64,000 nucleotides of DNA from contig JALCNR010000001.1 of assembly GCA_022649165.1 (NCBI GenBank), positions 124,001-188,000 of the forward strand, in the 5' to 3' direction. Of the stretch, positions 29,409 to 61,315 are shown piece after piece. The notes under the pieces are model-generated. The model was given only the letters and a program-made list of their open reading frames with translations. It was not told the DNA's origin and searched no databases. The number at the start of each line of letters is the position of its first letter. Positions within the stretch are counted from its first letter, which is position 1. Position numbers and translations under genes: made by a program. This DNA comes from Actinomyces sp. (GTDB taxonomy: Bacteria > Actinomycetota > Actinomycetes > Actinomycetales > Actinomycetaceae).

Positions 29409-29442
29409 CGCCGAGTGGTCGCGCGCATGCGACCACTCGGCG
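29409..29442. repeat. 34-bp dispersed palindrome, copy 1
   Basis: Arms CGCCGAGTGGTCGC and GCGACCACTCGGCG pair perfectly around GCGCAT. It lies in the divergent intergenic region, 112 bp from the GT4 start and 55 bp before the flippase start. Confidence 0.9.
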
Positions 29443-29496
29443 GGGCCGTGGTCCCCGCGCCCGGTCCAGCTTCCACCCGGGTGCCACAATGGGCGG

Positions 29497-30876
29497 GTGA
29501 GATCCGGCCCCTGGCAGCGTGCGCGCGCCCTCCTCGCACGCTCACCCACCGCGGTCAATGTGGGCACGTTGATGTCGGGCACCGTGCTCTCCCAGGTCAT
29601 CATGCTGCTCACCCAGGCAGTCGTCTCCCGCTACTTCGGCCCGCAGGAATACGGCTCTTTCGCCGCTTTCATGGCGATTCCCCAGACCGTGGCCGTCATC
29701 GCCGGACTCCGCTACGACATGGCCGTCGTCCTGCCGAAGCGCGACGCCGACGCGCGGAAGCTGGTTCGCGCCGTCCTCGTCATCGCCACGATCGCCTCCA
29801 TCGTGACGTCGGCGCTCACCTGGGCAGCCGCCCCCACGATCGCGAGCTGGATGAACCGGCCGGAACTGGCGCCGTGGCTGGGCTGGTCCGGCGTCATCGT
29901 CTGGGCGACCGCCACGGTCAACCTCATGGGGTACTGGTTCACACGCACAATCAACTACTCAGCAATCTCAGCCAATCGACTCCAGCAGTCCGCCACGGTC
30001 GAGGGCGCCCGTATCCTGGCCGGAGCCACGGGACACGCCGGTGGGATCGGCGGGCAGATGTTCGGGCAGGTCCTCGGACAGGTCCTCGCGGCATTGACGA
30101 TGCTGTGGCGGGGGCGCGACGCATGGCGTCAAGATCCTTCGACCGTCGCGAGTGGTCGCAAGCAGGCGACCACTCGACGAACAGAAGACGAGGAAGCGCC
30201 AGCCGCGTCCACGCGCGCGCTCCTCCGCCGCTACCGGCGCATGCCCCTGTTCAATGCTCCGAACGCCTTGGTCGACGCCGTGAGGACAAACGGGATCGTC
30301 CTGCTCATCGGCCTCGACTACACGGTCGCCGTCCAGGGCCAGTTCGGCAAGGCCTGGCTTCTCATGCAAGCCCCCCTGGCACTGATCAACGGAGCGGTCT
30401 CCCAGGTCTTCTTCCAGCGGTTCGCTACCACGCCGCGCGGACAGATGCGGGCGCTCGTCGACAAATCGGTGCGGATGTCGCTCCTTGCCGGACTCATCCC
30501 CTTCGCCCTGCTGGGCGTGATCTCCCCGTGGCTCTTTCCCTGGTACCTCGGTGACCAATGGGAGCTTGCCGGCCAGATCGCCCGGGCCCTGGTGCCGTGG
30601 CTTTACCTCAACCTGGCGACGTCGCCGATCTCAACCGTTTTTGTCGTCGCCGACCGTCAAGGCGCAATGTTGACGTTCGCCTGCGCATATGCCGCGGCAC
30701 CGCTGGCAACCATCGCGCTGCTCGGTGCGCATGGCACAGGGATCGTCACCCTGGTGTGGATCGTCTCGACGATGATGGCCGTTCTATTGGCAGGACTGGT
30801 GCTCCTCACCCGGCGGGTGGCGACGCAATGGGACGCCGCAGTCCCTCCGACTGCGGGCCGGGACACTCCGGCATGA
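29497..30876 (+). CDS. Polysaccharide flippase (Wzx/MATE-like, MVF superfamily)
   Basis: 459-residue membrane protein with 10 or more helices; the first is SQVIMLLTQAVVSRYFGPQEYGSF, typical of oligosaccharide flippases (PST family). It should move undecaprenyl-linked sugar units across the membrane. GTG 29497 lies 6 nt after CACAAT (29485-29490). A dispersed palindrome is inserted in the cytosolic loop near residue 220 and is translated as SGRKQATTRR without breaking the frame. The stop overlaps the next glycosyltransferase start (ATGA). Confidence 0.85.
   Translation: MRSGPWQRARALLARSPTAVNVGTLMSGTVLSQVIMLLTQAVVSRYFGPQEYGSFAAFMAIPQTVAVIAGLRYDMAVVLPKRDADARKLVRAVLVIATIASIVTSALTWAAAPTIASWMNRPELAPWLGWSGVIVWATATVNLMGYWFTRTINYSAISANRLQQSATVEGARILAGATGHAGGIGGQMFGQVLGQVLAALTMLWRGRDAWRQDPSTVASGRKQATTRRTEDEEAPAASTRALLRRYRRMPLFNAPNALVDAVRTNGIVLLIGLDYTVAVQGQFGKAWLLMQAPLALINGAVSQVFFQRFATTPRGQMRALVDKSVRMSLLAGLIPFALLGVISPWLFPWYLGDQWELAGQIARALVPWLYLNLATSPISTVFVVADRQGAMLTFACAYAAAPLATIALLGAHGTGIVTLVWIVSTMMAVLLAGLVLLTRRVATQWDAAVPPTAGRDTPA
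30146..30179. repeat. 34-bp dispersed palindrome, copy 2, inside flippase gene
   Basis: Core GAGTGGTCGC, centre AAGCAG, GCGACCACTCGACG; the outer left arm is altered (TCGC). It is translated in frame as part of a hydrophilic loop. Confidence 0.85.
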
Positions 30877-32069
30877 GACTCGCACTCGCCAAGGCGACAT
30901 GGCAGATCCCGCCGACGTACTTCGCGGTCCAACACGCGCTGGCCCTCCAGGAGGAAACCCCCGACATCGACGTCCACGCCTTCACCTTCGCCTCCGACGT
31001 GCGCGACCCGGCCGTGCGCGAACGCATCCCCGTGACCGACGCGGTCCCGGCGCGACTGGGCCCCTTCCCGCTATCCCCCGCCTCCCGATCACGGCTCGCG
31101 TGGCTCTTCCAGTCCCGGATGGGGCACGAGATCCGCGCTTGGTCCCCCGACGTCGTCCACCAGCACGCCGCGACGTGGTCCCTGCCCGCCGTCCATGCCG
31201 CTCGAGCCCTGGGAGTCCCGCTCGTCACCACGCTCCACGGGGCCGACGCCTTCGGAGGCTCCCTCACGAGGGCGTCCCGCGCCTCTGCGAGCCGGATCGC
31301 CGGACGTTGGATGCAGCGCAACCTGGACGCCGCCTCCCAGGAGTCTGCGGTCGTCCTGGCCGTGTCCCGCTACCTGGCGGATACGGCCGTGAGGAACGGC
31401 GTCCCCGCGCACCGCCTGCGGGTCCATTACCAGGGAGTCGACACCGACTGGTTCACGCCCGCACCCATACCCGCCGAGTGGTCGCATGCACGTGACCACT
31501 CGCGGGAGTTGCTGTTCGTCGGGGCACTCACTCCCCTCAAGGGGGTCATGGATCTGCTGGCCGTCTCCGAGTCCCTGGCCCTGATTCACCCTCATCGGCT
31601 TACCATCGTCGGGGACGGCCCCCTGGCTCCGCAGATCCGCCGGGCGGCCGCCCTCGACCCCGGGCGCGTGAGGTGGGTGGGCGCGCTGGATCGCGCCGCT
31701 GTGCGCGAGCGGATGCGGGCGGCCGACGCCCTGGTCCTCCCGACCCGCACCATGGCCGGCGGGCGCGCCGAGGCCGCGGGCCTGGTGCTGCTGGAGGCCC
31801 AGGCGTGCGCGACCCCGGTCGTCGTCAACGCGGTCGGAGGGACACCCGAGATGATGGTCGACGGCTCCACTGGCTTCGCCACCCGCGAGCGCGACCCAGG
31901 CTCGCTGGCGGACGCGCTCACCCGCATCCTCGCGATGCCCGACGACGAACTCGCCGAGATGGGCTGCCAGGCACGCCGCTGGGTGGTCGCCGAACGGTCC
32001 CTCGCCGCATCGACGCGCGAGCTGCTGGGAATCTACCGGGATCTCACAGAGGCGACCCCGCGGATCTGA
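30873..32069 (+). CDS. Glycosyltransferase family 4
   Basis: 398 residues. N-terminal acceptor domain: LALAKATWQIPPTYFAV, then VVHQHAATWSLPAVHAARAL and VTTLHGADAFGG. C-terminal donor domain: LLFVGALTPLKGVMDLLAV, HRLTIVGDGPLAPQIRRA, and GLVLLEAQACATPVVVNAVG (EX7E). The dispersed palindrome encodes AEWSHARDHS exactly at the junction of the two domains (about residues 201-211). Translationally coupled to the flippase. A degraded copy of its first 90 bp lies at 43330-43419. Confidence 0.88.
   Translation: MRLALAKATWQIPPTYFAVQHALALQEETPDIDVHAFTFASDVRDPAVRERIPVTDAVPARLGPFPLSPASRSRLAWLFQSRMGHEIRAWSPDVVHQHAATWSLPAVHAARALGVPLVTTLHGADAFGGSLTRASRASASRIAGRWMQRNLDAASQESAVVLAVSRYLADTAVRNGVPAHRLRVHYQGVDTDWFTPAPIPAEWSHARDHSRELLFVGALTPLKGVMDLLAVSESLALIHPHRLTIVGDGPLAPQIRRAAALDPGRVRWVGALDRAAVRERMRAADALVLPTRTMAGGRAEAAGLVLLEAQACATPVVVNAVGGTPEMMVDGSTGFATRERDPGSLADALTRILAMPDDELAEMGCQARRWVVAERSLAASTRELLGIYRDLTEATPRI
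31472..31505. repeat. 34-bp dispersed palindrome, copy 3, inside glycosyltransferase gene
   Basis: Left arm CGCCGAGTGGTCGC, centre ATGCAC, right arm GTGACCACTCGCGG. It is translated AEWSHARDHS and lies in the linker between the two Rossmann domains, a place likely to tolerate insertion. Confidence 0.88.
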
Positions 32070-32093: not shown

Positions 32094-32127
32094 CGCCGAG
32101 TGGTCGCATGCGGGCGACCACTCGGCG
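32094..32127. repeat. 34-bp dispersed palindrome, copy 4
   Basis: Perfect arms around ATGCGG. It lies between the convergent glycosyltransferase and oxidoreductase genes (24 bp and 15 bp from their stop codons), where it could also end transcription from both sides. Confidence 0.9.
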
Positions 32128-34352: not shown

Positions 34353-35064
34353 TGCGGTCGGCTTCCTCGAGGGTGTCCGGTGCGGTCTGGCGGTACAAGG
34401 CGCCCGTGGCCGGACAGCGCCACAGGTCGCCCGCATCGGCGAGGGCGTCCCGCGCCCCGGACGCCGAGTGGTCACGCGCGTGCGACCACTCGGCGCGGCC
34501 GTCGCCGGGTCCTGCCGGGACCAGGGGGACGCCTGCGCGACCCACCCACCCGACGCGGCGGGCCGGGACGCCGGCGACCAGGGCGAACGCAGGGACATCA
34601 TGAGTGACCACAGCACCGGCCGCGACGGTCGCCCACTGGCCGATGGACACGGGCGCGACGCACACGGCACGCGCCCCGATCGACGCGCCCCGCCCGATCG
34701 CGACCCCGACGGGATCCCAGTCCGCGGCGGACTTCAGGGAGCCATCGGGGTTGACGGCCCGCGGGGTGTGGTCATTCGTGAGGACTGCGGCCGGACCGAT
34801 GAACACGCCGTCGGCCAGTTCGGCCGGCTCATAGACCAGGGCCTGGTTCTGCACCTTGCAGCGGGCGCCCATACGGACCCCGGTGCCGATGTAGGCGCCC
34901 CGGCCGATGATGCAGTCAGAGCCGATGACGGCGCCCTCGCGCACCTGCGCAAGGTGCCACACACGGGTCCCGGCGCCGATGCGGGCGCGCGGGTCCACGT
35001 CAGCGCTCGCGGCGATGGCGACGCCGTCACCCGGCGCGGCGGCGGTTACGGGATCCTGCGGCAT
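34345..35064 (-). CDS. Left-handed beta-helix N-acetyltransferase, WbpD/WlbB-like
   Basis: 239 residues. Hexapeptide repeats run from ARIGAGTRVWHLAQVREGAV through IGRGAYIGTGVRMG and end in VAGVPARRVGWVG. LTNDHTPRA with a His is typical of UDP-3-amino-sugar acetyltransferases. The C-terminal tail contains the palindrome-encoded AEWSHARDHS, then a DLWRCPATGALYR segment that looks like a half zinc ribbon. It is the first gene of the acetyltransferase-aminotransferase-dehydrogenase set; RBS AGGGGAG before ATG 35064. Confidence 0.87.
   Translation of the reverse strand: MPQDPVTAAAPGDGVAIAASADVDPRARIGAGTRVWHLAQVREGAVIGSDCIIGRGAYIGTGVRMGARCKVQNQALVYEPAELADGVFIGPAAVLTNDHTPRAVNPDGSLKSAADWDPVGVAIGRGASIGARAVCVAPVSIGQWATVAAGAVVTHDVPAFALVAGVPARRVGWVGRAGVPLVPAGPGDGRAEWSHARDHSASGARDALADAGDLWRCPATGALYRQTAPDTLEEADRND
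34462..34495. repeat. 34-bp dispersed palindrome, copy 5, inside acetyltransferase gene
   Basis: CGCCGAGTGGTCAC, centre GCGCGT, GCGACCACTCGGCG. Read on the minus strand it gives AEWSHARDHS, the same peptide as copy 3 in the glycosyltransferase, between the beta-helix and the C-terminal tail. Confidence 0.88.
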
Positions 35065-36353: not shown

Positions 36354-36402
36354 GCGCCCACCGTGGTCGGTCGTCACGGGCGGCGCGCGGCCTCATGTGA
36401 GA

Positions 36403-36500
36403 GGTTCTGTTGGGTTGTTCACGGGCGGCGCGCAGGGCCGGCGCCCTGGCTGTGGGCGGTCCGGGCGTGCTGGATGAGTTGGCGGGCGATGGCGCCGTTA
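36403..36500 (-). mobile_element. Left IS-end remnant with transposase-like C-terminus
   Basis: From 36403 the plus strand reads GGTTCTGTTGGGTTGTTC; 36403-36450 matches the complement of 44589-44636 at 42 of 48 positions. On the minus strand an open frame NGAIARQLIQHARTAHSQG ends at TGA 36419-36421, just inside this end, as transposases often do. The GGTTCTGTTG terminus resembles IS6-family ends, but the family cannot be fixed from so little. Confidence 0.55.
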
Positions 36501-37104
36501 TCGGCTGGGCAGATCGAACCCGATGCGCAGCCCCGTCCCCTCGGCCAGCCGGAAACGCATTCTGCCCTGTTTGCCCCGCCCTGCCGGCTCGACTGTCCGC
36601 GCCTCTCGAATAGGCCTGCCCGGATTCACGCGCCCCTCCCGCGCCGGATCGTCGCGGCTGAGCGCCCGGGGTCGACGCCGCCCTCGTTGAGGACTCCCCG
36701 CTTCAGAGACTTCACGAGTTTGCCGAAAACGATTCGGCCATCGACCCTGGGCAGTGACAGTCCAAGAGATGTAAGTGCCCACCGCGGATGGGGCCAGTGC
36801 TTCGAACTGCGTCCATGCCCACCTCGCATCCCACGGAGACGTCCCGCTGGCGGAGTCTCCAAAGAACGCTCCCAACGATCAGCCCGTCGATCGGGCGGGC
36901 CTCGCGCGCCTCGCGGAGTCCACCACCCCGATAAGCGGAAGATGCCCCCAGACGTGAAGGCGAGAGCCCGCGAGGCGGCGCCTGGCGCGGGGGAGATCGA
37001 GGTTCCCGTGCCGCTTTGTCCGGCTCGTCGGGAATGAGGACCGACCTGGCTCGCCGGAGCGTCCCCCCCTGTCGGCACCGTCGATTCGATCCGCATCCAC
37101 GTGC
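36501..37104. other. Non-coding scar at left edge of island
   Basis: No recognisable gene on either strand. Several open frames exist but none shows a known domain or a ribosome site. The sequence becomes visibly more A+T rich towards 37,100, where the island promoter region begins. Confidence 0.4.
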
Positions 37105-37183
37105 TGTTGTGATAGCAACATATTGATCGATTATCGTCATCTCCTTTGTGAATCCGTTTTTTACTGTTGCTTGTATAACAACA
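37105..37183. promoter_or_regulatory. Candidate IclR operators before the lyase operon
   Basis: Two inverted repeats lie here: TGTTGTGATAGCAACA (37105-37120) and TGTTG, nine bases, CAACA (37165-37183). Both contain TGTTGCT-like half sites, which recur at 44220-44227 and 44293-44300 before the iclR gene. The region is A+T rich and 175-250 bp before the first lyase start. Confidence 0.5.
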
Positions 37184-37357
37184 TGCGTCGACGACGAGGA
37201 CGCTCTGGCGATAGCTTCGATGTGTCCACAGACCTCACGAGTCCCCGCCGCGACAAGAGATGTCGACGGTGCGTCGGATGCGCCGGTTCTGTGGTCACCG
37301 CAAATCGACCCGCGTCGACGCGTCTGGCCGTATGCGCAAGCTCAGAGGGGGAAGACA

Positions 37358-38611
37358 GTGACGGGCCAACACCTGTATGGCAAGCAGACGGAACTTGGTG
37401 TCGAGAACTTCGGACCAGGTCGCCGCCGGGCCTCGGACGTCCCGATGCTCATCAAGAACTACGGGCTGGTCAAGGAGGCAGCCGCCGAAGCCAACCGGAA
37501 GCTCGGAGTGATCTCCGGTTCCCAGGCGCAGGCCATCGAGCAGGCCGCCCACGAGGTGGCGCAGGGACTGCACAACGAGCAGTTCCCGACAGCCCTCGTC
37601 GTGGGTGGCGGCGGAACGACCACCAACATGAATGTCAACGAGGTCATCGCCGCCCGGGCATCTGAGATCGCTGGCACGCTGATCCACCCGAACGATCACG
37701 TCAACGCGTCACAGTCCACGAATGACAGCTATCCCACCGCGATGGCTCTGACTGTCCTGGACCTCGCCGAAGCCCCGATCCGGGCGTTGGACGACCTGGC
37801 CCTCGCGTTCGACTCAAAGGCGGATGAGTACGACCAGACGATCCGGCTCGGACGGACCTGCCTTCAGGATGCCGTCACCCTGACCGTCGGAGAGACCCAC
37901 AGATCGCACTCCGCAGCGATCCGACGGACGACGAGCCAGTTGCGCACGGCGGTGTCTGCGCTCACCGAGATCCCCCTCGGCGCCACGGTTCTCGGGAGCG
38001 GCATCGGTGCCGCATCCGGTTACCGCCGGGAAGCCGTCGCTCAGCTCTCGAAGCTGACCGGACGCGAGTTAGCTCCTTCTCCGGACATGTTCGACGCTCT
38101 CGCAAACCTCGACCCGTACGCCCGCATCGCCCATGCCGGCGCTCGCACAGCCCTCACGATGGCGAAGATCGCACAAGACCTCCGGGTCCTCTCCTCGGGG
38201 CCCTTGGCCGGGATCGAGGAGGTGATGCTCCCCGCTACTCAGGCAGGGTCGTCCATTATGCCCGGCAAGATCAATCCGGTGATTCCCGAGTATGTCATGC
38301 AACTGAGCTATCGGATCCGCGGAACGTCCAGCACGGTGGAGATGGCCGCTGCGGCCGGCGAGCTCGAGTTGAACATCATGGAGCCCATCATCATCGACAG
38401 CCTCATCGACATCTTCGACGACCTCAAATCTGCCGCCACGATCTTCGCGGACAAGTGCATCAAGGGCCTCACCTGGGATGGCTCCCGTCTGCAGGCCAAT
38501 GCATCGGCTGCCTTCGACAGGTGGATCAAGAAGTCCTCCGAGGTCGGTTACGAGGAGACAACCCGTGAGGTCACGGAGTACTGGACGAACGCCAAGCACG
38601 ACATCCCATGA
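37358..38611 (+). CDS. Aspartase/fumarase-superfamily C-N or C-O lyase, first paralogue
   Basis: 417 residues, shorter than AspA (about 470). Conserved blocks: GGGGTTTNMNVNEVIA (83-98), NASQSTNDSYPTA (116-128), GRTCLQDAVTLTVGETH (165-181) and the superfamily signature GSSIMPGKINPVIPE (297-311) with the catalytic Ser loop. These enzymes add or remove an amine or water at fumarate. Cys 168 replaces the His of fumarase or Gln of AspA at the GRTxLQD site, so the substrate may differ from aspartate. GTG 37358 has GAGGGGGA upstream. It begins an operon with a second lyase, a C4-dicarboxylate transporter and an MmgE/PrpD protein. Confidence 0.85.
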   Translation: MTGQHLYGKQTELGVENFGPGRRRASDVPMLIKNYGLVKEAAAEANRKLGVISGSQAQAIEQAAHEVAQGLHNEQFPTALVVGGGGTTTNMNVNEVIAARASEIAGTLIHPNDHVNASQSTNDSYPTAMALTVLDLAEAPIRALDDLALAFDSKADEYDQTIRLGRTCLQDAVTLTVGETHRSHSAAIRRTTSQLRTAVSALTEIPLGATVLGSGIGAASGYRREAVAQLSKLTGRELAPSPDMFDALANLDPYARIAHAGARTALTMAKIAQDLRVLSSGPLAGIEEVMLPATQAGSSIMPGKINPVIPEYVMQLSYRIRGTSSTVEMAAAAGELELNIMEPIIIDSLIDIFDDLKSAATIFADKCIKGLTWDGSRLQANASAAFDRWIKKSSEVGYEETTREVTEYWTNAKHDIP

Positions 38612-38860
38612 CCTCGGACGCAGGAGCAGAGCCGCTCGGCCAACCGCGTCACAACAGAGCGCAGACGGCACATCCTTTGCATTCGCGACACCGCTCCCAC
38701 CGACGAGGACGCCGCACTGAACACGCGACCACCACCGCAAACGGCCCCATTCACCGCGGCGCGACCGATCCAAGAACCAAACCAGCACAGTCGCTGACCA
38801 CAGCCGAGCGATCTCCCGTGCTGCCGTCACACCCAGAAACCAGAAAGAAGACACATCTCG

Positions 38861-40138
38861 ATGACGCGAAACAATTCAGGAAAGACCTACTACGGCAGCT
38901 TCACCGCGAACGCCCTCTCGAATTCTCCAGACGGACCATCAATCTCAGAATACCCGGACTTCGTCGACGCCTACACGCAGGTGAAGCGGGCGTGCGCCCA
39001 GGCGGGTCGCGACACAGGGATCGTCGCTCCCGACATCTGCGAGGCGATCGTCCGTGCCTGCGACGCGATCCTCACGGGAGATTACAACGATCAGTTCATC
39101 TCAAAGCTCCAGGCTGGTGGCTCAGCGACCACGACGAACATGAACTTCAACGAGGTCATCGCCGCCCTCGCCTCGGAGATCCTCGGTGACGGCCGCGCAG
39201 TCGAGCCCATCGACGACGTGAACCATGCGCAGTCGAGCAACGACACCTATCCGACCGCCATGCACATCTGTCTGGTCGGCCGCCTCGACGCGGTCGTCGC
39301 CGAGCTCCGACAGCTCCTTTCCAGCCTCCTCGAGAAGGCGGAGGCGTACGGCGACGAGCGTCGGCTCGGTCGTACGTGCCTCATGGACGCAGTGACTCTC
39401 ACCATCGGCCAGACCCATCAGGGGCAGGCGACCTCTGTTGCTCGAATCATCAGAGAAGTCGAAGCCGCCCGCGACGCTCTGTACTCCGTCCCGTTGGGCG
39501 CAACCGCGATCGGCACTGGGATCGGCGCCCCGGATGGGTACGGCTGCAAGGCCACCGAGTACCTGGCCCAAACGATAGGTCGCCCCTATCGGCAGGCTGA
39601 GGACCTTTTCGATGCGATGGCCAATGTCGATGAGATCGTCGCGGCTGCACACGTCCTCCGGCGCGCCTCGATGATCCTCTACAAGCTGGCTGCCGATGTC
39701 CGTCTCCTCTCTTCGGGTCCTCAAGGCGGGTTCCGCGAGATCAAGCTGAAGAAGCTTCAGGCCGGATCCTCGATCATGCCCGGCAAGGTGAATCCCACGA
39801 TTCCCGAGGCGACCATGACCTGCATGATTCGCGTACGTGGGTGGGTCGACATGGTCGAGGAGGCCGCAGACGCCGGAGAGCTCGAGATCAACGTCTTCGA
39901 GCCCATCTTCCTTGAGGCCATGATCGGCGCGATGGACAACATCATCCAGGGGTCCCAACTGTTCCGTGAGCGTTGCTTCGACACCATGGAATGGGATCTC
40001 GACGTGATGGCGACGAAGAACGCCTACGGCACGGATCGCTTCGTGGAGGTCTCCGAGGCCCACGGATACGACCACGCGGCGAACCTGCGCGCCGAGACTG
40101 ACCCCGACTCCGTCCACATCGTGGGCGACACACATTGA
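38861..40138 (+). CDS. Aspartase/fumarase-superfamily lyase, second paralogue
   Basis: 425 residues. Same block order as its neighbour: ATTTNMNFNEVIAALASEI (89-107), NHAQSSNDTYPTAM (121-134), GRTCLMDAVTLTIGQTHQG (170-188) and GSSIMPGKVNPTIPE (302-316). It is clearly related to the first lyase over its whole length but far from identical, so the pair may be two enzymes of one path or two subunits. The unusual GRTC motif is shared. ATG 38861 has AGAAAGAAG upstream. The 249-bp gap between the two genes holds no recognisable feature. Confidence 0.85.
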   Translation: MTRNNSGKTYYGSFTANALSNSPDGPSISEYPDFVDAYTQVKRACAQAGRDTGIVAPDICEAIVRACDAILTGDYNDQFISKLQAGGSATTTNMNFNEVIAALASEILGDGRAVEPIDDVNHAQSSNDTYPTAMHICLVGRLDAVVAELRQLLSSLLEKAEAYGDERRLGRTCLMDAVTLTIGQTHQGQATSVARIIREVEAARDALYSVPLGATAIGTGIGAPDGYGCKATEYLAQTIGRPYRQAEDLFDAMANVDEIVAAAHVLRRASMILYKLAADVRLLSSGPQGGFREIKLKKLQAGSSIMPGKVNPTIPEATMTCMIRVRGWVDMVEEAADAGELEINVFEPIFLEAMIGAMDNIIQGSQLFRERCFDTMEWDLDVMATKNAYGTDRFVEVSEAHGYDHAANLRAETDPDSVHIVGDTH

Positions 40139-40151
40139 GAGGAGCGTTGAC

Positions 40152-41507
40152 ATGATCTGGATTCAACTGGTTGTCGTCCTCATCGCCATCGCGATCGGCG
40201 CGAGGCTGGGCGGTATCGCCATCGGATTCGCTGGAGGAATTGGCGTTCTGGCATTAGCTTGCCTCGGCGTGACTCCTGGTGACATGCCACTCGACGTCAT
40301 CGTCATCATGATGGCCGTCATCACGACGACGGCCGCCATGCAGGCGGCTGGCGGCATGGACTATCTCGTGTATCTCACCGGCACGCTGCTCAAGAGACAC
40401 CCCAAGCAACTGGCGTTCCTCGCCCCGGTCGTCACGTGGCTGCTCGTCGTGACAAGTGGCACCGGGATGTCCTCCTTCGCGCTGTTCCCCGTCATCACAG
40501 AGGTCGCGAAGGGCACCAATATGCGTCCTTCCCGTCCTCTCACACTGTCCGCAATCGCTTCAATGACCGCAATCGTCGCCTCACCTGTCTCCGCGGCCGT
40601 GGTCTACTTCTCCGGGGTACTCGACGAGAAAGATCCGAGCATCGGCTACCTCGGTCTATTGGGCACGACGATCCCCGCAACATTGATCGGCATCATCGCG
40701 ACTGCGGCCATCATGCTTGCCATCGACAAGGTCCGAGGAACATTGGCTCTGTCCTCCGTGGAGTCGCAGAAGATGTCCGCGGGGAACGCCTCCGGCGAGC
40801 CCCGTCCCGATGGCTTGTCCACCGAGGCCCTGGACCGCGAGCTCTCTCATCTCGGATCAAAGGTGACCGCGAACGCCAAGCGCTCCGTGTGGATCTTCGT
40901 GATCACGCTCATCCTCATCATCACGTACGCCATCCTGATCAGCCCCCAGGTCGGTATCGTCGAGACTCCCGTTCTGCCGCGCGACACCGCGATCATCTCG
41001 GCGATGCTCGCCGCGGGAGCTGCGATCGTCGCATTCTGCAAGGTCAGAGTCGAGGACGTTCTCAGCACCTCCACATTCAAGTCCGGTGGCAGCTCCTACG
41101 TCTGCTGCCTCGGCGTCGCATGGCTGGGGACGACCTTCGTGACGGCCAACCAGGACACCATCGTCAACGCCCTTGGCGGGGTGCTGGAATCCGCGCCTTG
41201 GCTGCTTGCGGTGGTCCTCGTGGTCGCCTCCTCCCTCCTGTACTCTCAGGCGGCCACCGCAAAGGCACTGATGCCTCTTGCCTTGAGCCTGGTCAGTCCC
41301 GCGGTCGCTGTTGCCAGTTTCCCCGCCGTCGCCGGGTTCTTCCTCCTTCCGACCTATCCGACTGTTGTCGGAACCGTCGCGATCGATGACACAGGAAGCA
41401 CGAAAATCGGAAAGTACGTCTTCAATCACTCATTCATCGTGCCAGGCGTCATCAACATGATCATCACCGTCGCTATCGGAACCGTGCTGATCTCGGTCAT
41501 CTCATAA
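40152..41507 (+). CDS. Dcu-family C4-dicarboxylate transporter (DcuA/DcuB-like)
   Basis: 451-residue membrane protein with at least ten helices. It starts WIQLVVVLIAIAIGARLGG and IGFAGGIGVLALACLGVTPGD, very close in pattern to DcuA/DcuB. Later blocks are LAPVVTWLLVVTSGTGMSSF, IVASPVSAAVVYFSG and PTYPTVVGTVAIDDTGSTKI. Dcu carriers exchange fumarate, malate or aspartate for succinate under anaerobiosis. Next to two fumarate-forming lyases it would handle their product or import an amino-dicarboxylate. RBS AGAGGAG before ATG 40152; 13 bp after lyase 2. Confidence 0.9.
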   Translation: MIWIQLVVVLIAIAIGARLGGIAIGFAGGIGVLALACLGVTPGDMPLDVIVIMMAVITTTAAMQAAGGMDYLVYLTGTLLKRHPKQLAFLAPVVTWLLVVTSGTGMSSFALFPVITEVAKGTNMRPSRPLTLSAIASMTAIVASPVSAAVVYFSGVLDEKDPSIGYLGLLGTTIPATLIGIIATAAIMLAIDKVRGTLALSSVESQKMSAGNASGEPRPDGLSTEALDRELSHLGSKVTANAKRSVWIFVITLILIITYAILISPQVGIVETPVLPRDTAIISAMLAAGAAIVAFCKVRVEDVLSTSTFKSGGSSYVCCLGVAWLGTTFVTANQDTIVNALGGVLESAPWLLAVVLVVASSLLYSQAATAKALMPLALSLVSPAVAVASFPAVAGFFLLPTYPTVVGTVAIDDTGSTKIGKYVFNHSFIVPGVINMIITVAIGTVLISVIS

Positions 41508-41604
41508 CCCGTTATGCCGACCAGCGCGAGGCGAATCTCGGCACGCTCGAACTGAGCATGAGCCACGAACTGCGTTCAACGCATCCATCATTCAAAGGAG
41601 AAAA

Positions 41605-42957
41605 ATGAGCTACGTAGAGGATCTGTTGGATGACATATGGCAGATCGATGTCGACACGACTCCGAAGGACGTGACGGACGAGACCAAACGCGCCATTTCC
41701 GACTTCTTCGGTGTCACTATCGCCGGATTTCAGAACCCAGCTGCCAAGCCAATTCTCAGGCATATCCAGATGCACTCGTCCTCAAGCGGCAGCTCCCTCC
41801 TCGGCACTTCTATGAAGGTAGAAGCGCAGATGGCCTGCCTGGGAAACGGCTATGCTGCACACGTCTACGACCTCGACGACTGTCTCCAATCAACGCTGGG
41901 GCACCCGACAGCGGCCCTGGCCCCTGCAATAGTCTGTGCCGCCGAAGAGGCCAATGCGACAGGCGCCGACGTGATTCGGGCATATCTGATCGCCCTGGAG
42001 GTCATCGGTCGAATCGGACGAGTCGCCAATCCGACGACCTCTGAGCGAGGATGGCATTGTTCGCCGGTCTTCGGTGTCATCGGCGCCGCCACGGCAGCTT
42101 CCGTGCTGCTCGGATGCGACAAGGCCACAACGGCCATGGCGATCGGGATCTCCTGCTCATACGCTTCCGGACTCCGGGCGAACTTCGGAACGCACGTGAA
42201 GGCCCTGCACATGGGAGCAGCAGCCGAACGGGGTCTGGAAGCCGCCGAACTGGCCAGGACAGGAACGACGTCATCTCTGACAGCGCTGGAGGGGACGGAC
42301 GGGTTCTTCCAGGTCTTCGCCGGCATTCCTCCAAATTCTGTGAGATATGAACCCAGCACGAATTGGGAGCTGCAAGACCCGGGTCTGATGTACAAACGTT
42401 TCTCTTGCTGCTCAGGGATGGCCCCTGCGATCGAGGCGATTCTCGAACATCCTCAGCTGAGAGAATCTGATCCGGCGGAGATCGAGTCCATACATGTCGG
42501 AACCAGCATTCTATCGCCGATGGAACTGGTCCACCCGCTTCCCCAGACAGCAATGCAATCCAAGTTCTCGATGCAATATGCAATCGCCTGCCCAATTGTT
42601 CATAGAAAGACGACCCTCGAAGTGTTCAACAACGACTCCTACGTTCAGGATGAGAGGGTCCAGGAATTGATGAAAAAGATCTATCTCGCCGTCGACCCTG
42701 AACTCGCTGAACGAGGGATGACAGCCGACGCTCCGGTGAAGATCCGTGTGGACTTTCGGGACGGGACTGCCGTCGAAACCAGGAGGGATTATGCGCGAGG
42801 AAACCCTCTGAACCGCCTGTCCGACCAGGAGATGCGCGAGAAGTTCATGGGCCTGTGTGCTCCGGTCTTGGGCACGAGCGGAGCCGCGGAGCTGTATTCA
42901 TCCCTCACGGCGCTGGAAAGCGCGGCAAATGTGCGGGACCTCACCGATCTCTGCTAG
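41605..42957 (+). CDS. MmgE/PrpD family protein (possible iminodisuccinate-type epimerase)
   Basis: 450 residues. Family blocks: DFFGVTIAGFQNPAAKPI, GNGYAAHVYDLDDCLQS, GHPTAALAPAIVCAAEE, GWHCSPVFGVIGAATAAS and FGTHVKALHMGAAAERGLEA. The family includes 2-methylcitrate dehydratase, cis-aconitate decarboxylase and the iminodisuccinate epimerase of Agrobacterium. No propionate or itaconate genes are nearby, whereas two aspartase-like lyases and a C4-dicarboxylate carrier are, so an epimerase of an aspartate-type substrate is favoured. Strong RBS AAAGGAG before ATG 41605. Confidence 0.82.
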   Translation: MSYVEDLLDDIWQIDVDTTPKDVTDETKRAISDFFGVTIAGFQNPAAKPILRHIQMHSSSSGSSLLGTSMKVEAQMACLGNGYAAHVYDLDDCLQSTLGHPTAALAPAIVCAAEEANATGADVIRAYLIALEVIGRIGRVANPTTSERGWHCSPVFGVIGAATAASVLLGCDKATTAMAIGISCSYASGLRANFGTHVKALHMGAAAERGLEAAELARTGTTSSLTALEGTDGFFQVFAGIPPNSVRYEPSTNWELQDPGLMYKRFSCCSGMAPAIEAILEHPQLRESDPAEIESIHVGTSILSPMELVHPLPQTAMQSKFSMQYAIACPIVHRKTTLEVFNNDSYVQDERVQELMKKIYLAVDPELAERGMTADAPVKIRVDFRDGTAVETRRDYARGNPLNRLSDQEMREKFMGLCAPVLGTSGAAELYSSLTALESAANVRDLTDLC

Positions 42958-43180
42958 AGCCTCGCTCCGCCGAGCCGTTCCAGTCGTCATCCGAGCGGGT
43001 CGGGGACACCCTCGGCGGCCTTGGCCCAGGTGAGCGGCTTGGGTTCCCGCTCCCGGCATCGGCCCAGCCGCGGAGGCCCTTCTCACGGACCCGAACGGAA
43101 CGGCGGTCAGTGCCGCAGCGGATCGCGATGACTTCGGCGAGCGGGCCGTTCGACTTGGCTGATCCACGACTGACGCGCCG
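42958..43180. other. Region after MmgE/PrpD gene; no gene recognised
   Basis: A short minus-strand frame (MRVVPLRRVSRGSAKSNG onward) has no family I recognise. The sequence is G+C rich again, unlike the island genes, and may be leftover host or IS DNA. Confidence 0.3.
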
Positions 43181-43203
43181 GAGTGGAACCACTCTCACTT
43201 TTT
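43181..43203 (+). terminator. Rho-independent-like terminator of lyase operon
   Basis: GAGTGG, two bases, CCACTC (43181-43194) form a 6-bp stem, followed by TCAC and five T (43199-43203). It is 224 bp after the MmgE/PrpD stop codon. Confidence 0.45.
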
Positions 43204-43329
43204 AGTGACGTTCCCGTGGAACCGTATACGTCTGTTGGGCCGGGCGGACACGATGCCGCCAGCCATGTTCACCGCCGCGAAGAGGCTGGTGGCGTCGGTC
43301 TTGACGGCTGCCCTCCTGGCGGCTCTGAT

Positions 43330-43419
43330 CGCACTCGCCAAGGCCGCATGCCAGATCCCGCCGACGTCCTTCGCAGTCCGACACGCGCTGGCCCCCCGAG
43401 AGGCGACACCCGACATCGA
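43330..43419 (+). pseudogene. Decayed copy of glycosyltransferase 5' end
   Basis: These 90 bp match 30881-30970, the first codons of the GT4 gene, with 12 mismatches by my alignment. The encoded peptide IALAKAACQIPPTSFAVRH parallels LALAKATWQIPPTYFAVQH. The rest of the gene is absent. It shows that polysaccharide-locus DNA has been duplicated and trapped at the right side of the island. Confidence 0.8.
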
Positions 43420-43439
43420 TGCGCCAGGCTCCCATCACG

Positions 43440-44300: not shown

Positions 44301-44588
44301 TGCTCAGTTTGAGAAAAGCGAGCGAAGAGGGGATGGGCCCGCGGCATCGCGTCAGAGCCTTCCTGGTATGGGCTACGCGCGCATTCGGGTGGACGGGGTG
44401 TTGTTCGCACCGTCATATCGAATGGCGAACGCATGCTCCCTCCTCGTCGGGATCAGCGTCAGGTCTGATGAGAGATCCCGCCAGCAGAACGTCTCCGCGA
44501 ATCGGATTGGATTCCGCTCCGTTCTTGAAGCGGGGATGGAAGACGATGAATCAGAAGTATTCTCCCGGGATAGGCAAGGCGCCCGCCT

Positions 44589-45975: not shown

Positions 45976-45977
45976 CG

Positions 45978-47246: not shown

Positions 47247-47318
47247 TTGAGGCTGGTCGGACGGTCGTCGACACGGCGTCACGGGTGGCACGTCGGGCGT
47301 TCGCGGCAGCGGGCTGGC

Positions 47319-47339
47319 TTGACTCTGCCGCTACGTCAA
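47319..47339. promoter_or_regulatory. Possible MerR-type operator
   Basis: TTGAC, eleven bases, GTCAA form an inverted repeat just before the VOC gene, and TTGACT could be a -35 box. MerR regulators bind dyads between -35 and -10. No convincing -10 at 19-20 bp spacing was found. Confidence 0.3.
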
Positions 47340-47356
47340 CCGGCAGGGTGATGTCC

Positions 47357-47845
47357 ATGACCGAAGAGAACAGGCCGGTCGCCGACCGGTCGATCTACGT
47401 GATGCCGATGTTCGTGAACGTTGTGGTGAGCGATCTCGCCGCCGCTGCCAGACTGTACGCCTCCGCCGGTTTCGTGACCCTGGCGTCCATCCCGGGGCCC
47501 GGTGGCGCGCCCTCGCTCGTGCATCTGCGACGCGAGAGGTACCAGGACATCCTGATGACCCAGGGCGTGGCGGTGCGCGGGACGGTATCGGCGTCGTTCG
47601 CCGCGGGAGCGGTTGACCTCGGCGGCGTGGCCGACCGGATCCGTTCTGCGGGAGGCCGCGCCACAGGGCCGTTCGACACGCCGTGGTTCACGACCGACGT
47701 CACGTTCACCGATGCGGATGGGAACACCATGACGCTGACCGCGCCGCGCCAGGCGGACCGCGAGGCGGCGCAGGAATGGGCAAGCGGGGGAATCATCGGC
47801 GATTTTGAACGTCCCGGGGGCTCCCGCGATCCGAGCGGGCTCTGA
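47357..47845 (+). CDS. VOC-superfamily protein (glyoxalase/bleomycin-resistance fold)
   Basis: 162 residues with one vicinal-oxygen-chelate beta-alpha-beta-beta-beta repeat pair: MFVNVVVSDLAAAARLYASA and WFTTDVTFTDADGNTMTLTA. The usual metal His/Glu ligands are not obvious, so it may bind rather than transform a ligand. ATG 47357 is chosen since AGGG lies 8 nt before it; ATG 47351 is open too. It is followed 14 bp later by a MerR/TipA-type regulator, a common pairing in drug sensing. Confidence 0.75.
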   Translation: MTEENRPVADRSIYVMPMFVNVVVSDLAAAARLYASAGFVTLASIPGPGGAPSLVHLRRERYQDILMTQGVAVRGTVSASFAAGAVDLGGVADRIRSAGGRATGPFDTPWFTTDVTFTDADGNTMTLTAPRQADREAAQEWASGGIIGDFERPGGSRDPSGL

Positions 47846-47859
47846 AAAGGACGAGACGC

Positions 47860-48618
47860 ATGGCGGAGTGGCCGATCAGGGATGTGGCTCGAGCGACCGG
47901 GCTGACCAGCCGCGCGCTTCGCCACTATGAGCAGATCGGACTGCTTCGCCCGTCGCGAGTCGCGAGCAACGGGTACCGGTTCTACGGGGACCAGGAGCTG
48001 TCCCGGCTCTACCGAATCTTGTCGCTCCGCGCGCTCGGACTCCCCCTCGCGGCCATTCAGATCGCACTCGACGATGGCGCTCCTCTCGCCGAGGTGATCG
48101 CTGCCCATCTCGCGCTCCTCGAGGAGCGGCGCGACCGCATCAGCCAGCAGATCTCCGTCGTCCGCAGCACTCTGGACGCGATCGCGAAAGGCCAGACCAT
48201 GACCATGCCAGAGATCTTCTCAGGTGTCGACCAGAGCCGGTACGAAAGCGAAGTGCGCGCGCGCTGGGGCGACGAGGCTTGGGAGCTCAGCTCCAGGCGC
48301 CGCGACCAGATGAGCAAGAAGCAGCGACGATCCGCTGACGACCGGAGTGCCGACGTCAACGCCGCGCTCCGCGACGCGGCGGCGGGCGGCCTCGACCCGG
48401 CGAGCGGCAATTTCCAGCGGCTGATCGCCGACCACCACCGCTGGGTGACCGAGTACTGGGGCGGGCGCGTCCCCGACCGCGACGCCTACGCCGGGCTGTC
48501 CGAGCTGTACGTCGCGGACGTGCGATTCGCGGCCGTCTACGGAGGACAGGGCAACGCCGAGATCATCCGCGAGGCGATGCGGATCTGGATCGCAGCCAAC
48601 CTCGAGCAACGCGGTTGA
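47860..48618 (+). CDS. MerR-family regulator with TipAS-type domain
   Basis: 252 residues. MerR helix-turn-helix: WPIRDVARATGLTSRALRHY followed by EQIGLLRPSRVASNGYRFY and the dimer coiled coil LALLEERRDRISQQ. The C-terminal part (MPEIFSGVDQSRYESEVRAR onward, with HHRWVTEYWGG) matches the TipAS antibiotic-binding fold known from thiostrepton-induced TipA. It likely activates the VOC-regulator pair in response to a xenobiotic. The ligand is unknown. Confidence 0.85.
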   Translation: MAEWPIRDVARATGLTSRALRHYEQIGLLRPSRVASNGYRFYGDQELSRLYRILSLRALGLPLAAIQIALDDGAPLAEVIAAHLALLEERRDRISQQISVVRSTLDAIAKGQTMTMPEIFSGVDQSRYESEVRARWGDEAWELSSRRRDQMSKKQRRSADDRSADVNAALRDAAAGGLDPASGNFQRLIADHHRWVTEYWGGRVPDRDAYAGLSELYVADVRFAAVYGGQGNAEIIREAMRIWIAANLEQRG

Positions 48619-48764
48619 CGCCTGACCGCGAGGCAGGCGAGAGCTCACCGGAACGGCCCGCCAACCGGTCAGGCGGATGCGGCAGGCACACACGCGGCCC
48701 ATCGCACGGATGGCCTGCGAGTCCGCACGATGGCTGTCACCGGCCTCGCAGAGGCCGCGGCGAC
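48619..48764. other. Convergent intergenic region, nothing recognised
   Basis: Separates the MerR gene from the inverted third LCP gene. I see no repeat copy or clear terminator. Confidence 0.3.
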
Positions 48765-50042
48765 TCAGCCGGCGTCCGCGGGCGGGCACTGGTCCTGTGT
48801 GGTCGGCTCGACTACCGTGGGCGTCCGGCTCTGGGCGTCGGACTGAGCCGATTCCTCGGAGGGCGTCGAGGTCCCGTCCCCGCTGGGCTGCGCGGGATCG
48901 GCGACGGTGAGCACGTTGCCGGAGCCGTCGGTGTACTGAGTGCCCGCAGGCAGTTCGGCGTCGTCGGCCAGGGCCGCCCAGACCTCGGAGGCCGCCGGCT
49001 CGGTGGCCTCGACGTAGTTCAGGTTCCACGAGGCCGGAGCGGAGGGCATCGTGAGGAACTGGATGTCCGCGCGATCGATGCCGGACAACGAGAGCAGCAG
49101 CCCGGCATCGGTGTTGATGTCCGCGAGGTCCGTCGAGGTCTGCACGGCGTTCAACGCCTGCTTGACGAAGCTGAGGACCGAGGGCAGATCGGTGACGAAG
49201 TTCTTCGACAGCAGCTCGCGCATCATCGCGGAGACCAGTTGCTGCTGGCGCCCGATGCGCTGCGTGTCCGAGCCGTCCCCCAGCGTCTTGCGCACGCGCG
49301 CGTACCCCAGGGCGGCGTGCCCGTCGAGCTTCTGGCATCCGGCATCCAGGGTGATCGCGGCGTCCGGGTCGTTGACGGGCTCCTCGACGTTGAACCAGAC
49401 CCCGCCCAGGGCGTCGACCATTTGCTGGAACCCGCTGAAGTCGATGACGGCGAATCCGTCGAGGTCCAGGCCGGTGATCTGCTTGACCGTGGCCATCGTG
49501 CAGGCGATGCCCGAGGCGACGTCGTATCCCCCGTTCGCCCCGATCGAGATCGCCGCGTTGAAACGGTCCTCGGTCTCCTCTGACACGGAGCCGTCGGAGC
49601 GTGTGCAGGCCGGGATGTCGGTCCACAGGTCTCGGGGGATCGAGACGACCTGGACGCGGGAGCGGTCCGCGGAGACATGGGCGATCATCGTCGTGTCGGA
49701 GCGGATCCCGCTGACATCGCTCGTGGTGCCGAACTCGTCCGTCCCCTGGTTCTCGCGCGAGTCGATGCCGACGAGCAGGAGGGTCAGCGGGCGGCCCTCG
49801 AAGGAGTCCGCCGGCTCGTCCTCGGCCGCGTCCCCGCTCTGCGCGCCCAGCCCGGTGATGTCGATCGAGTTGCCGCCGAGGTCGGAAGCGAGGTCCTCGT
49901 AGACGAACCACGCCGTGGAGGCCACGAAGAGGACGAGGGAGAGCACGACGGCCAGGACGACGCGCCCGGCGCCGAAAGAGGACAGGGCGCCCGCGGCATG
50001 GGAGGCGGCGGCGGGGCCCGCTCCGCCGCGTCTGGTGCTCAT
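48765..50042 (-). CDS. LytR-CpsA-Psr (LCP) family glycopolymer ligase, third copy
   Basis: 425 residues. One N-terminal helix (GRVVLAVVLSLVLFVASTAW), then LTLLLVGIDSRENQG, IRSDTTMIAHVSADRSRVQVV, SIPRDLWTDIPACTR, and YARVRKTLGDGSDTQRIGRQ. It is highly similar to the first LCP throughout, down to the C-terminal QDQCPP, but in opposite orientation. The tail is Ser/Thr-rich and probably extracellular. RBS GGAAGG before ATG 50042; a dispersed palindrome lies 98 bp upstream. Confidence 0.9.
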   Translation of the reverse strand: MSTRRGGAGPAAASHAAGALSSFGAGRVVLAVVLSLVLFVASTAWFVYEDLASDLGGNSIDITGLGAQSGDAAEDEPADSFEGRPLTLLLVGIDSRENQGTDEFGTTSDVSGIRSDTTMIAHVSADRSRVQVVSIPRDLWTDIPACTRSDGSVSEETEDRFNAAISIGANGGYDVASGIACTMATVKQITGLDLDGFAVIDFSGFQQMVDALGGVWFNVEEPVNDPDAAITLDAGCQKLDGHAALGYARVRKTLGDGSDTQRIGRQQQLVSAMMRELLSKNFVTDLPSVLSFVKQALNAVQTSTDLADINTDAGLLLSLSGIDRADIQFLTMPSAPASWNLNYVEATEPAASEVWAALADDAELPAGTQYTDGSGNVLTVADPAQPSGDGTSTPSEESAQSDAQSRTPTVVEPTTQDQCPPADAG

Positions 50043-50139: not shown

Positions 50140-50173
50140 CGCCGAGTGGTCGCAAGCTGGCGACCACTCGGCG
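50140..50173. repeat. 34-bp dispersed palindrome, copy 6
   Basis: Perfect arms around AAGCTG, between galE (3' end) and the third LCP gene (5' end), both on the minus strand. Confidence 0.9.
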
Positions 50174-52082: not shown

Positions 52083-52116
52083 CGCCGAGTGGACGCACGC
52101 ACGCGACCACTCGACG
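52083..52116. repeat. 34-bp dispersed palindrome, copy 7
   Basis: CGCCGAGTGGACGC, centre ACGCAC, GCGACCACTCGACG, with one arm mismatch. It lies between purK and purE, which run in the same direction. Confidence 0.88.
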
Positions 52117-53355: not shown

Positions 53356-53389
53356 CGCCGAGTGGTCGCGTGCTGGCGACCACTCGGCG
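53356..53389. repeat. 34-bp dispersed palindrome, copy 8
   Basis: Perfect arms around GTGCTG, in the divergent region between purK and the GtrA-type gene. Confidence 0.9.
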
Positions 53390-59274: not shown

Positions 59275-59308
59275 CGCCGAGTGGTCGCGAGCAAGCGACC
59301 ACTCGGCG
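59275..59308. repeat. 34-bp dispersed palindrome, copy 9
   Basis: Perfect arms around GAGCAA, between the DUF885 gene and maf, both on the plus strand; 37 bp before the maf start. Confidence 0.9.
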
Positions 59309-59345: not shown

Positions 59346-60119
59346 ATGATCCGCCTCGTCCTCGCGTCGCGGTCGCCAGCACGCCTGGCCACACTGCGCG
59401 CAGCCGGCATCACACCGATCGTCCGTGTTTCCCAGATCGACGAGGACGCCGTCCTGGCGGAGCTGCCGGGCGGCCGGGCATTCGACGGAGGCCCGACCAT
59501 GCCCGCCGACGAGGTTGCCGCGCTGGCTGCCGCCAAGTGCCGAGCCGTCGCCGCCTCCGTCGAGACGCTCGAGCCGGACGCCGGTCATGTACCCGACGCC
59601 GACCGACTGGTCGTCCTCGGATGCGACTCCATGCTTGAGATGGGTCAACGCATGCTGGGCAAGCCGCACAACCCCGACGTGGCGCGGCGTCGCATCCGCG
59701 AGATGCGCAACCGCAGCGCCGTCCTGTGGACCGGACACCACGCGATCGTGCTGGATCGCACGGTCGGACGGCAGAGCCTGTCCGGCCTCCCCGACTCACC
59801 GAGTGGTCACGTGCACGCGACCACTCGCGACGACCGGCTGGGCGCGCCGCGCTGGCATCGCACAGCGGAAGCCGGCGGCACAGCATCGACCGTCGTGCAT
59901 TTCGGGGACATCACCGACGCCGAGATCGACGCCTACGTCGACTCCGGCGAGCCGCTCGAGGTTGCCGGTTCCTTCACGGTCGACGGCTTGGGCGGGCCTT
60001 TCATCACCGGTATCGAAGGCGACTACCACTCCGTCGTCGGCCTGTCTCTGCCGCTGGTGCGCATCATGCTGCGCGACCTCGGGATCTTCTGGCCCGACCT
60101 GTGGGACCTGCGGCGCTGA
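59346..60119 (+). CDS. maf: Maf-like nucleotide pyrophosphatase
   Basis: 257 residues, longer than the usual ~200. It hydrolyses non-canonical or modified nucleoside triphosphates. Motifs: LASRSPARLATLRAAGI, VVLGCDSMLEMGQRMLGKP, and VHFGDITDAEIDAYVDSGEP followed by AGSFTVDGLGGPFI. Part of the extra length (around residues 148-180) is a loop holding the dispersed palindrome, translated PSGHVHATTR. RBS AAAGGA before ATG 59346. Confidence 0.9.
   Translation: MIRLVLASRSPARLATLRAAGITPIVRVSQIDEDAVLAELPGGRAFDGGPTMPADEVAALAAAKCRAVAASVETLEPDAGHVPDADRLVVLGCDSMLEMGQRMLGKPHNPDVARRRIREMRNRSAVLWTGHHAIVLDRTVGRQSLSGLPDSPSGHVHATTRDDRLGAPRWHRTAEAGGTASTVVHFGDITDAEIDAYVDSGEPLEVAGSFTVDGLGGPFITGIEGDYHSVVGLSLPLVRIMLRDLGIFWPDLWDLRR
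59797..59830. repeat. 34-bp dispersed palindrome, copy 10, inside maf
   Basis: CACCGAGTGGTCAC, centre GTGCAC, GCGACCACTCGCGA. It is in a different frame from copies 3 and 5 but the same as copy 2, giving SGHVHATTR here and SGRKQATTR in the flippase. Confidence 0.85.
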
Positions 60120-60209: not shown

Positions 60210-61199
60210 ATGGACACCAGGAAGGCATGGGGCATCGGCCTCGCGACAGCGACGAAAAGCGGACAGACATTGGACGTCTGGTACCCGCGACCGCACCTCG
60301 GTGGGCGCACCGACACCTCGGAGGGAACCGACTCCGACCTGCTGGCCACGCTCGGCAGCCTGGAGCGCGAGGACACGGCCCGCGGGATCTACACGACGGT
60401 GGTGACCTGCCAGGCGGACCTCGACGACCAACCGCAATCGACAGCGGATTCCTATCTGCGCCTGCATCTGCTCTCACACCGTCTGGTCCTGCCGAACTCC
60501 ATCAACCTGGACGGCATCTTCTCCCGCCTGCCCAATGTCGTGTGGACGACAGCGGGCCCGTGCGCCACGGAGGACTTCGAGGAGACGCGGGTGCGTCTGC
60601 GCCTGCGCGACGGCCATCAGGTGACGGTCACGAGCGTCGACAAGTTCCCCCCGATGGTGAATTACGTCATCCCCTCAGGGGTGCGCATCGCGGACGGGGC
60701 GAAGGTCCGGCTCGGCGCGCACCTGGCCGAGGGAACGACCGTGATGCACGCCGGGTTCGTCAACTTCAACGCCGGCACGCTCGGGAAGTCCATGATCGAG
60801 GGACGCATTTCGCAGGGGGTTGTCATCGGAAACGGCTCGGACGTGGGCGGCGGCGCCTCGACGATGGGGCGCCTGTCGGGAGGCGGCCGCGAGCGCGTCA
60901 GCCTCGGGGAGCGTTGCCTGCTCGGCGCGAACTCAGGCCTGGGGATCGCGTTGGGCGACGATTGCGTCGTCGAGTCGGGCCTGTACCTCACGGCCGGAAC
61001 GAAGGTCGCGGTCCTCTCCAGCGGCGGAGTCGTCCCCGGCTCCGGGGGCGTCTTCATGGATCCCCGCACCGTGGCGGCCCGCGAGCTGTCGGGGGCGTCC
61101 AACGTCCTGTTCCGCCGCAATTCCGTGTCCGGACGCGTCGAGGCGCTTCCTCGAGGCGGTCACGGCATCGAGCTCAACGACGCCCTCCACAAGAACTGA
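60210..61199 (+). CDS. dapD: 2,3,4,5-tetrahydropyridine-2,6-dicarboxylate N-succinyltransferase
   Basis: 329 residues of the actinobacterial DapD type. It succinylates tetrahydrodipicolinate in the DAP/lysine pathway. The left-handed beta-helix starts near FPPMVNYVIPSGVRIADGAK and includes AHLAEGTTVMHAGFVNFNAG, then ISQGVVIGNGSDVGGGAST and LLGANSGLGIALGDDC. ATG 60210 lies 6 nt after TACAGT (60198-60203). The next enzyme gene, dapC, lies 1.6 kb further right across gltA. Confidence 0.94.
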   Translation: MDTRKAWGIGLATATKSGQTLDVWYPRPHLGGRTDTSEGTDSDLLATLGSLEREDTARGIYTTVVTCQADLDDQPQSTADSYLRLHLLSHRLVLPNSINLDGIFSRLPNVVWTTAGPCATEDFEETRVRLRLRDGHQVTVTSVDKFPPMVNYVIPSGVRIADGAKVRLGAHLAEGTTVMHAGFVNFNAGTLGKSMIEGRISQGVVIGNGSDVGGGASTMGRLSGGGRERVSLGERCLLGANSGLGIALGDDCVVESGLYLTAGTKVAVLSSGGVVPGSGGVFMDPRTVAARELSGASNVLFRRNSVSGRVEALPRGGHGIELNDALHKN

Positions 61200-61281
61200 C
61201 GACCGGCGCCGCGTCATCGGCGAGGGCGTCCCGCGTTGCCGGGCGCGCCGGCCCCGCCACCCCGCTTCACGACACTAGCCT

Positions 61282-61315
61282 CGCCGAGTGGTCGCGTGCA
61301 GACGACCACTCGGCG
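61282..61315. repeat. 34-bp dispersed palindrome, copy 11
   Basis: CGCCGAGTGGTCGC, centre GTGCAG, ACGACCACTCGGCG. It lies between the convergent dapD and gltA genes. Confidence 0.9.

Follow-up and report, generated by a model that had tools for sequence, protein, structure and literature searches.

Palindromes of one family form an array in a single chromosomal region in some members of the genus Schaalia, and the array contains a gene of its own. Gene and palindromes are found in the same genomes and the same region, they vary in step across the wider family, and the palindrome arms are under constraint. Support for this link comes, within Schaalia, from co-occurrence and location and, across the order, from the flanks of the gene and from covariation. 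The encoded protein probably joins a Vsr-like nuclease part (EDxHD type), whose DNA cutting is putative, to an N-terminal part resembling AbiEi. We consider it reasonably probable that the palindromes and their own AbiEi/Vsr-like protein form one system, and our best reading is a REP-like palindrome family with a Vsr-like nuclease partner, regional and held in place in Schaalia.

A palindrome array in a conserved core region

The window, a stretch of 64,000 nucleotides on contig C1 of the genome G000, covers the left part of the array. A first-pass annotation had placed eleven palindromes in it, and our search recovered 11 of 11 in the same positions. Its exclusion of chance also stands, since the 26-nt core is expected 0.01 times per window at up to three mismatches. 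The palindromes are perfect or near-perfect inverted repeats, laid out in this species as 12+2+12 with a central GC, and lie as follows in window coordinates (open reading frames named from sequence):

29409..29442, strand (.), copy 1: intergenic, between divergent genes
30146..30179, strand (.), copy 2: within a flippase-like ORF
31472..31505, strand (.), copy 3: within a glycosyltransferase-like ORF
32094..32127, strand (.), copy 4: intergenic, between convergent genes
34462..34495, strand (.), copy 5: within an ORF placed on the minus strand by one gene calling and on the plus strand by another
50140..50173, strand (.), copy 6: intergenic
52083..52116, strand (.), copy 7: intergenic
53356..53389, strand (.), copy 8: intergenic, between divergent genes
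59275..59308, strand (.), copy 9: intergenic
59797..59830, strand (.), copy 10: within a maf-like gene, in a segment whose length differs among relatives
61282..61315, strand (.), copy 11: intergenic, between convergent genes

As had been described, neither 1-29 kb nor the island at 36.4-44.6 kb contains a copy; the site-free gap is wider than the island and runs from 34.5 to 50.1 kb. A motif search of the whole genome, proposed at the time as a check, returned 27 sites with up to three mismatches and extended the family beyond the window, with 15 more copies on C1. Nearly all of them (26/27) fall within C1:153413-265246, and 25 of those occupy 64 kb (153.4-217.4 kb). Our gene calling puts 22 of the 26 C1 sites in intergenic DNA and the other 4 inside genes. 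The six-base centre, earlier given as RNGCNN, keeps its GC in 25 of 26 C1 sites (C1:212418 has GG), but its leading purine is not constant: the centre starts with C or T in 7 of the 15 C1 sites outside the window. A lone outlier far from the array, C2:299878 on the second contig, is a perfect palindrome with two mismatches to the arms.

The host region is conserved core chromosome, as judged from synteny, and carries galE, purE, purK, maf, gltA, typA, ychF, ispH, xseA, uppS and greA, among others (gene names read from sequences). Its position relative to origin and terminus, another of the proposed checks, could be read from G003, a complete chromosome. There the core of the array spans 1638-1715 kb, about two thirds of the path from dnaA (2403 kb) to a site at 1322 kb that we take, from its motif, to be dif-like. 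The array thus lies mid-arm, ~0.7 Mb from dnaA and away from both landmarks, and the dnaA and dif-like positions in this chromosome argue against an origin or terminus domain.

The palindrome-free stretch has features of its own. The island (36363-44075) encodes, as read from the sequences, two aspartase/fumarase-like proteins, a transporter and a regulator-like protein. Its interpretation as a later arrival fits our comparison, in which one of the called island genes has a reciprocal best hit in the region of another carrier; that counterpart shares 36% identity and is displaced by ~80 kb from the corresponding position. Near the right end of the island there is a partial copy of the beginning of the glycosyltransferase-like ORF: a 91-nt piece (43329-43419) matches 30880-30970 at 87% identity. 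Farther on, at 44422-50042, three LytR-CpsA-Psr-like genes (named from sequence) lie close by each other.

Array and partner gene share the same four genomes

We surveyed 35 genomes of the genus, which was named through S. canis. The arms are present in four of them: G000, G001 (Schaalia canis OH770), G002 (Schaalia sp. Marseille-Q2122) and G003. The same core region hosts the array in all four carriers, as established by synteny for G000, G001 and G003 and by reciprocal best hits for G002. Strays are few. G001 has one site on another contig, and G002 has one full copy on another contig and two 2-mismatch matches elsewhere; G003 has outlying sites but no far strays, whereas each of the other three carriers has at least one. 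Parts of the syntenic region from nine non-carriers contained no comparable palindrome family: the best 8-nt arm pairs numbered at most 3 in these stretches versus 15 to 33 in carriers, and the best 7-nt arm pairs at most 5, mostly with mixed spacings, versus 16 to 38.

Three genes in a regional table of reciprocal best hits were common to the four carriers and missing from every non-carrier. Two (window 26876 and 28062) are marginal in position, where the non-carrier stretches no longer reach. The third, the one gene singled out inside the stretch that the non-carriers cover, is hereafter called the partner gene:

G000 C1:191829-193010, minus strand: partner gene, 393 aa, beginning 3.8 kb past window position 64000

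It lies inside the array and adjoins typA in 4/4 carriers; typA is held by 5 of the 9 non-carrier stretches. We then applied a genome-wide presence test to this gene in the 35 genomes. A profile built from its four versions matched at full strength in the four array carriers (E about 1e-188 or better), and the remaining 31 genomes were without a close homologue, 9 having a best hit of 4e-5 to 9.2e-4 and 22 having none at 0.001. Palindromes also stand close to the gene. In G001 and G002 there is one on both sides within about 300 nt; in G000 they are 126 and 902 nt away; in G003 one lies 274 nt off on one side, and on the other there is just a 3-mismatch site ~900 nt away. The density of the array in G001 and G002 peaks away from the gene.

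In a tree of 11 proteins from 13 genomes, non-carriers are nested among carriers: G014 groups with G000 (support 1.0), and G015 with G001 and G002 (support.94). This nesting implies a minimum of three joint changes of gene and array, whether gains or losses.

The partner protein is probably AbiEi-like and Vsr-like

The N-terminal part of the protein matches AbiEi models of PADLOC at E 3.9e-11 (G001 protein) and 4e-9 (window species). The Pfam AbiEi match is weak in the Schaalia proteins and exceeds the cut-off in 3 of 10 relatives from the order. The C-terminal part gives a weak match to MTES_1575 in two of the four carriers, G000 and G003, and MTES_1575 or DUF559 was matched in 10 of 10 order relatives scanned, all hits but one being under the cut-off. 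MTES_1575 is described as a Vsr-family nuclease domain (PMC3710099). All Pfam domain matches of the Schaalia proteins fall below their cut-offs, and NCBIfam gave no match to them. A profile of 14 proteins yielded marginal matches to Vsr structures and a mobile-intron protein (E 0.011 to 0.048; 0.013 for 1vsr), and a structure predicted from two sequences had a mean pLDDT of 40, too low to inform on the fold. In 14 of 14 aligned proteins E, D, ExxG, H and D are invariant (E271, D303, E316, H323 and D333 in the numbering of the G001 protein). We presume these to be nuclease-type residues, and they are retained in all four Schaalia carriers.

The domain reading draws on the weak profile matches taken with the shared residues. 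The C-terminal part and its invariant residues resemble Vsr/EDxHD nucleases, including the MTES_1575 endonuclease and DUF559 proteins, but the partner protein adds an AbiEi-like part and is tied to palindromes; conversely, its N-terminal part resembles the AbiEi antitoxin but is fused to a nuclease part. Between G001 and G002 the protein is 71% identical, against a regional median of 90% (sixth lowest of 67), with a dN/dS of.13 against a median of.05. It is therefore fast-evolving yet constrained. The protein was not found in phages, and plasmid records gave just two distant matches. A limited literature search returned no link of AbiEi, DUF559 or Vsr-like proteins to repeats, and a connection with palindromes would give a biological setting to a large uncharacterised family with AbiEi-like and DUF559/MTES_1575-like parts.

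Palindromes stay in place and their arms are constrained

Comparison of G001 with G002 showed that 36 of 39 sites occupy the aligned place, one more being three bases shorter and two unalignable. Over 32 shared intergenic sites, each gap being scored as a difference, identity is.988 and.992 for the arms,.60-.63 for the flanks and.69 for the six central bases, of which two places (T and A) are invariant. The regional median dS for this pair is 1.12. Arms ~99% alike beside flanks ~60% alike, kept places and this depth of divergence together indicate that the sites are old, in place and constrained, with freer centres. One consensus is common within each genome and differs between species: S. canis and its sister G002 have T and A at fixed places of the centre, versus GC in the window species.

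Between G001 and G002 nearly all sites fall in the same gene gaps; such sharing is weak between G000 and G003 (p.013) and is not significant for G000/G001, G000/G002, G001/G003 or G002/G003. Across deeper relatives, shared gaps are weakly enriched. Convergent, divergent and tandem gaps are used with no clear preference. In three of the four carriers, a degenerate palindrome sits at about the same codon of an mfd-like gene (G001 C13:84985, G002 C3:366491 and G003 C1:1680991). In G002 C3:350001-450000, neighbouring palindromes are more alike than chance (adjacent pairs, p.0004); likeness above chance was absent in the other three carriers, and local copying inferred from neighbour likeness holds for G002 alone of the four.

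Relatives across the order are often flanked by inverted repeats

Of 396 genomes searched in the order, 248 have a match to the protein at E 1e-8 or better. From the top matches, twenty were examined in 20-kb windows, with short contigs and some second hits left out. Exact inverted repeats of at least 15 nt lay across the gene in 14 of 20 cases versus 2 of 117 other genes in the same windows when called gene ends were used, and in 17 of 20 when raw match ends were used. Among the short loci of this search, inverted repeats were present in 24/29, and in 21/24 of those not cut by contig ends; pairing the flanks of different loci as a control gave 35/812. The two samples overlap, with 18 genes in both. 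Units often run head to tail ahead of the gene and in the reverse direction behind it. Across 23 loci, protein and repeat similarity were correlated (r.62), also among pairs of different genera (r.44; both p.0002), a covariation that may partly reflect shared descent of whole loci. Ten weak hits within the genus showed no 15-nt inverted repeat; they make a poor control because the matches cover the gene only partly and two loci are cut.

Some genomes also hold dispersed copies. Searches of 16 genomes with one or both of two motifs revealed 28 to 242 copies per genome in seven of them. The first motif occurs 101 times in G100 and 92 times in G142, which belong to one genus; the second occurs 171 times in G041, 242 in G136, 88 in G150, 103 in G192 and 28 in G038, and just 2 to 15 times in the other 10 of 15 genomes. 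The pattern read backwards gave 0 in all. Outside Schaalia, the copies are dispersed with no regional limit. G156, of the same genus as G100, has 0 copies of the G100/G142 palindrome despite a weaker protein relative (E 1.8e-15).

G100 and G142 differ by a 1,084-bp gene segment inverted at the palindrome arms, with flanks that align at 93%. The G100 gene sits between two half palindromes, reminiscent of a homing endonuclease gene within its own target site, cutting by the protein being putative here. This pair also supplied the sole candidate for an empty site, which the first-pass annotation had suggested seeking in relatives; it is messy, and no clean empty site was found. Within the 20-kb windows, only L174 reached three copies of a repeated palindrome (7-nt arms, one spacing); L166, with two copies like several others, was retained for its kinship to L174. 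These two loci come from genomes of another family, and the segment with the nuclease gene is flipped between their palindrome arms (L174:9983-11065 and L166:9665-10808). Both L166 arms share one 70-nt sequence, versus 40 nt in L174, as if flanks change together.

A repeat family with a probable nuclease partner

To our knowledge, RAYTs are the partner enzymes of short palindromic repeats. In the REPtron, short palindromes occur in many copies and the enzyme gene is flanked by inverted copies; the end tags of REPs are GTAG or CGTC, and some repeat families, such as CGTC REPs, are without an assigned partner enzyme (PMC3733652). The Schaalia family is similar in having palindromes of 20-40 nt in many copies (the 27 matches in G000) and in the inverted copies around the gene, seen in Schaalia as in the uncut order loci (21/24). 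It differs in that its enzyme looks Vsr-like with an AbiEi-like part, that no Y1 (HUH) domain was found in nine genomes searched, and that its copies are regional, with position kept and few strays, rather than dispersed genome-wide. The REP tags are likewise not matched: the consensus ends CGCCGAG or CGCGAG, and CGTC stands at one end in 4 of 26 single copies. Each of the two earlier interpretations survives in part. 'REP/MITE-like' agrees with a gene between inverted repeats and with dispersed copies in relatives, but no RAYT turned up in the nine genomes searched, the enzyme looks Vsr-like, and the sites stay put between G001 and G002; a 'protein-binding site limited to one part' of the genome agrees with the single region and a constraint that looks, from sequence, like that of binding sites.

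In the mechanism that we propose, the protein would bind the two arms as a dimer through its AbiEi-like part, with the target form GAGTGGTC-N10-GACCACTC, and the nuclease part would act on the variable centre or close to it. With neighbouring copies as templates, repair could then keep arms uniform while scrambling centres, and the same repair might flip the gene between two copies and seed new ones. The outcome in much of the order would be REP-like inverted repeats around the gene, with tens to hundreds of dispersed copies in some genomes. In the Schaalia carriers, where nearly all copies lie within some tens of kb of the gene and keep their places, either a scarce protein may act mostly near where it is made or the array may have gained a host use. 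Against this reading, an enzyme that cuts its own sites should drive their loss, yet the sites are strongly conserved. Cutting by itself would be expected to deplete the targets, and their survival suggests that the array is useful or that the copies restore one another by repair.

More broadly, and with somewhat less than even confidence, we propose that a RAYT-independent class of repeat and nuclease is widespread among Actinomycetales: an AbiEi/Vsr-like enzyme would maintain the palindromes of its own family, and in some Schaalia the system would have become a regional array, conserved in position, that marks a chromosomal domain. Such a class would name a different candidate partner for repeats in this order, and the Schaalia array offers a natural case of palindromes confined to one chromosomal region.

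Competing explanations

Palindromic sites limited to one chromosomal region are familiar from matS/MatP and parS/ParB. By this analogy the array could be a domain mark with a host use. An AbiEi/Vsr-like protein, now tamed, would bridge the palindromes so that the stretch is folded or insulated, and its nuclease activity would be dispensable for the sites. An array that is region-limited, with sites in place and constrained and with no clear preference among gap types, is consistent with such a mark. Nonetheless, we regard it as doubtful: the array lies mid-arm, at neither ori nor dif, and so differs from matS in not being in the terminus region and from parS in not being near oriC; 31 of the 35 genus members manage without it; all four carriers keep the nuclease-type residues; and the relatives have repeats around the gene, some of them dispersed.

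A 12+2+12 layout with a central GC is that of crossover sites used by invertase-type recombinases, and the palindromes of the window species share it; the inverted gene cassette of G100/G142 also lies between arms. The central dinucleotide is not constant, however, either among relatives or within them, and the aligned parts of G001 and G002 are collinear; we consider crossover sites very improbable. We give equally little credence to bidirectional transcription terminators or operators of local genes. Perfect or near-perfect inverted repeats in gene gaps would suit that role, but all three gap classes are occupied without clear preference, 4 of 26 sites lie inside genes, the stem is followed by A-rich rather than T-rich sequence in G001 and G002, 29-62 kb of the window has no Rfam match, and nearly all sites fall in one chromosomal region. 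Least probable of all are classical REP elements or MITEs moved by a RAYT or another transposase, for despite short palindromes that lie between genes at 22 of 26 G000 sites, a search for the REP-associated tyrosine transposase, as once advised, found Y1_Tnp in 0 of 9 genomes with a positive control in E. coli, the consensus is without a GTAG end, and the sites are not genome-wide in G000 and keep their places between G001 and G002.
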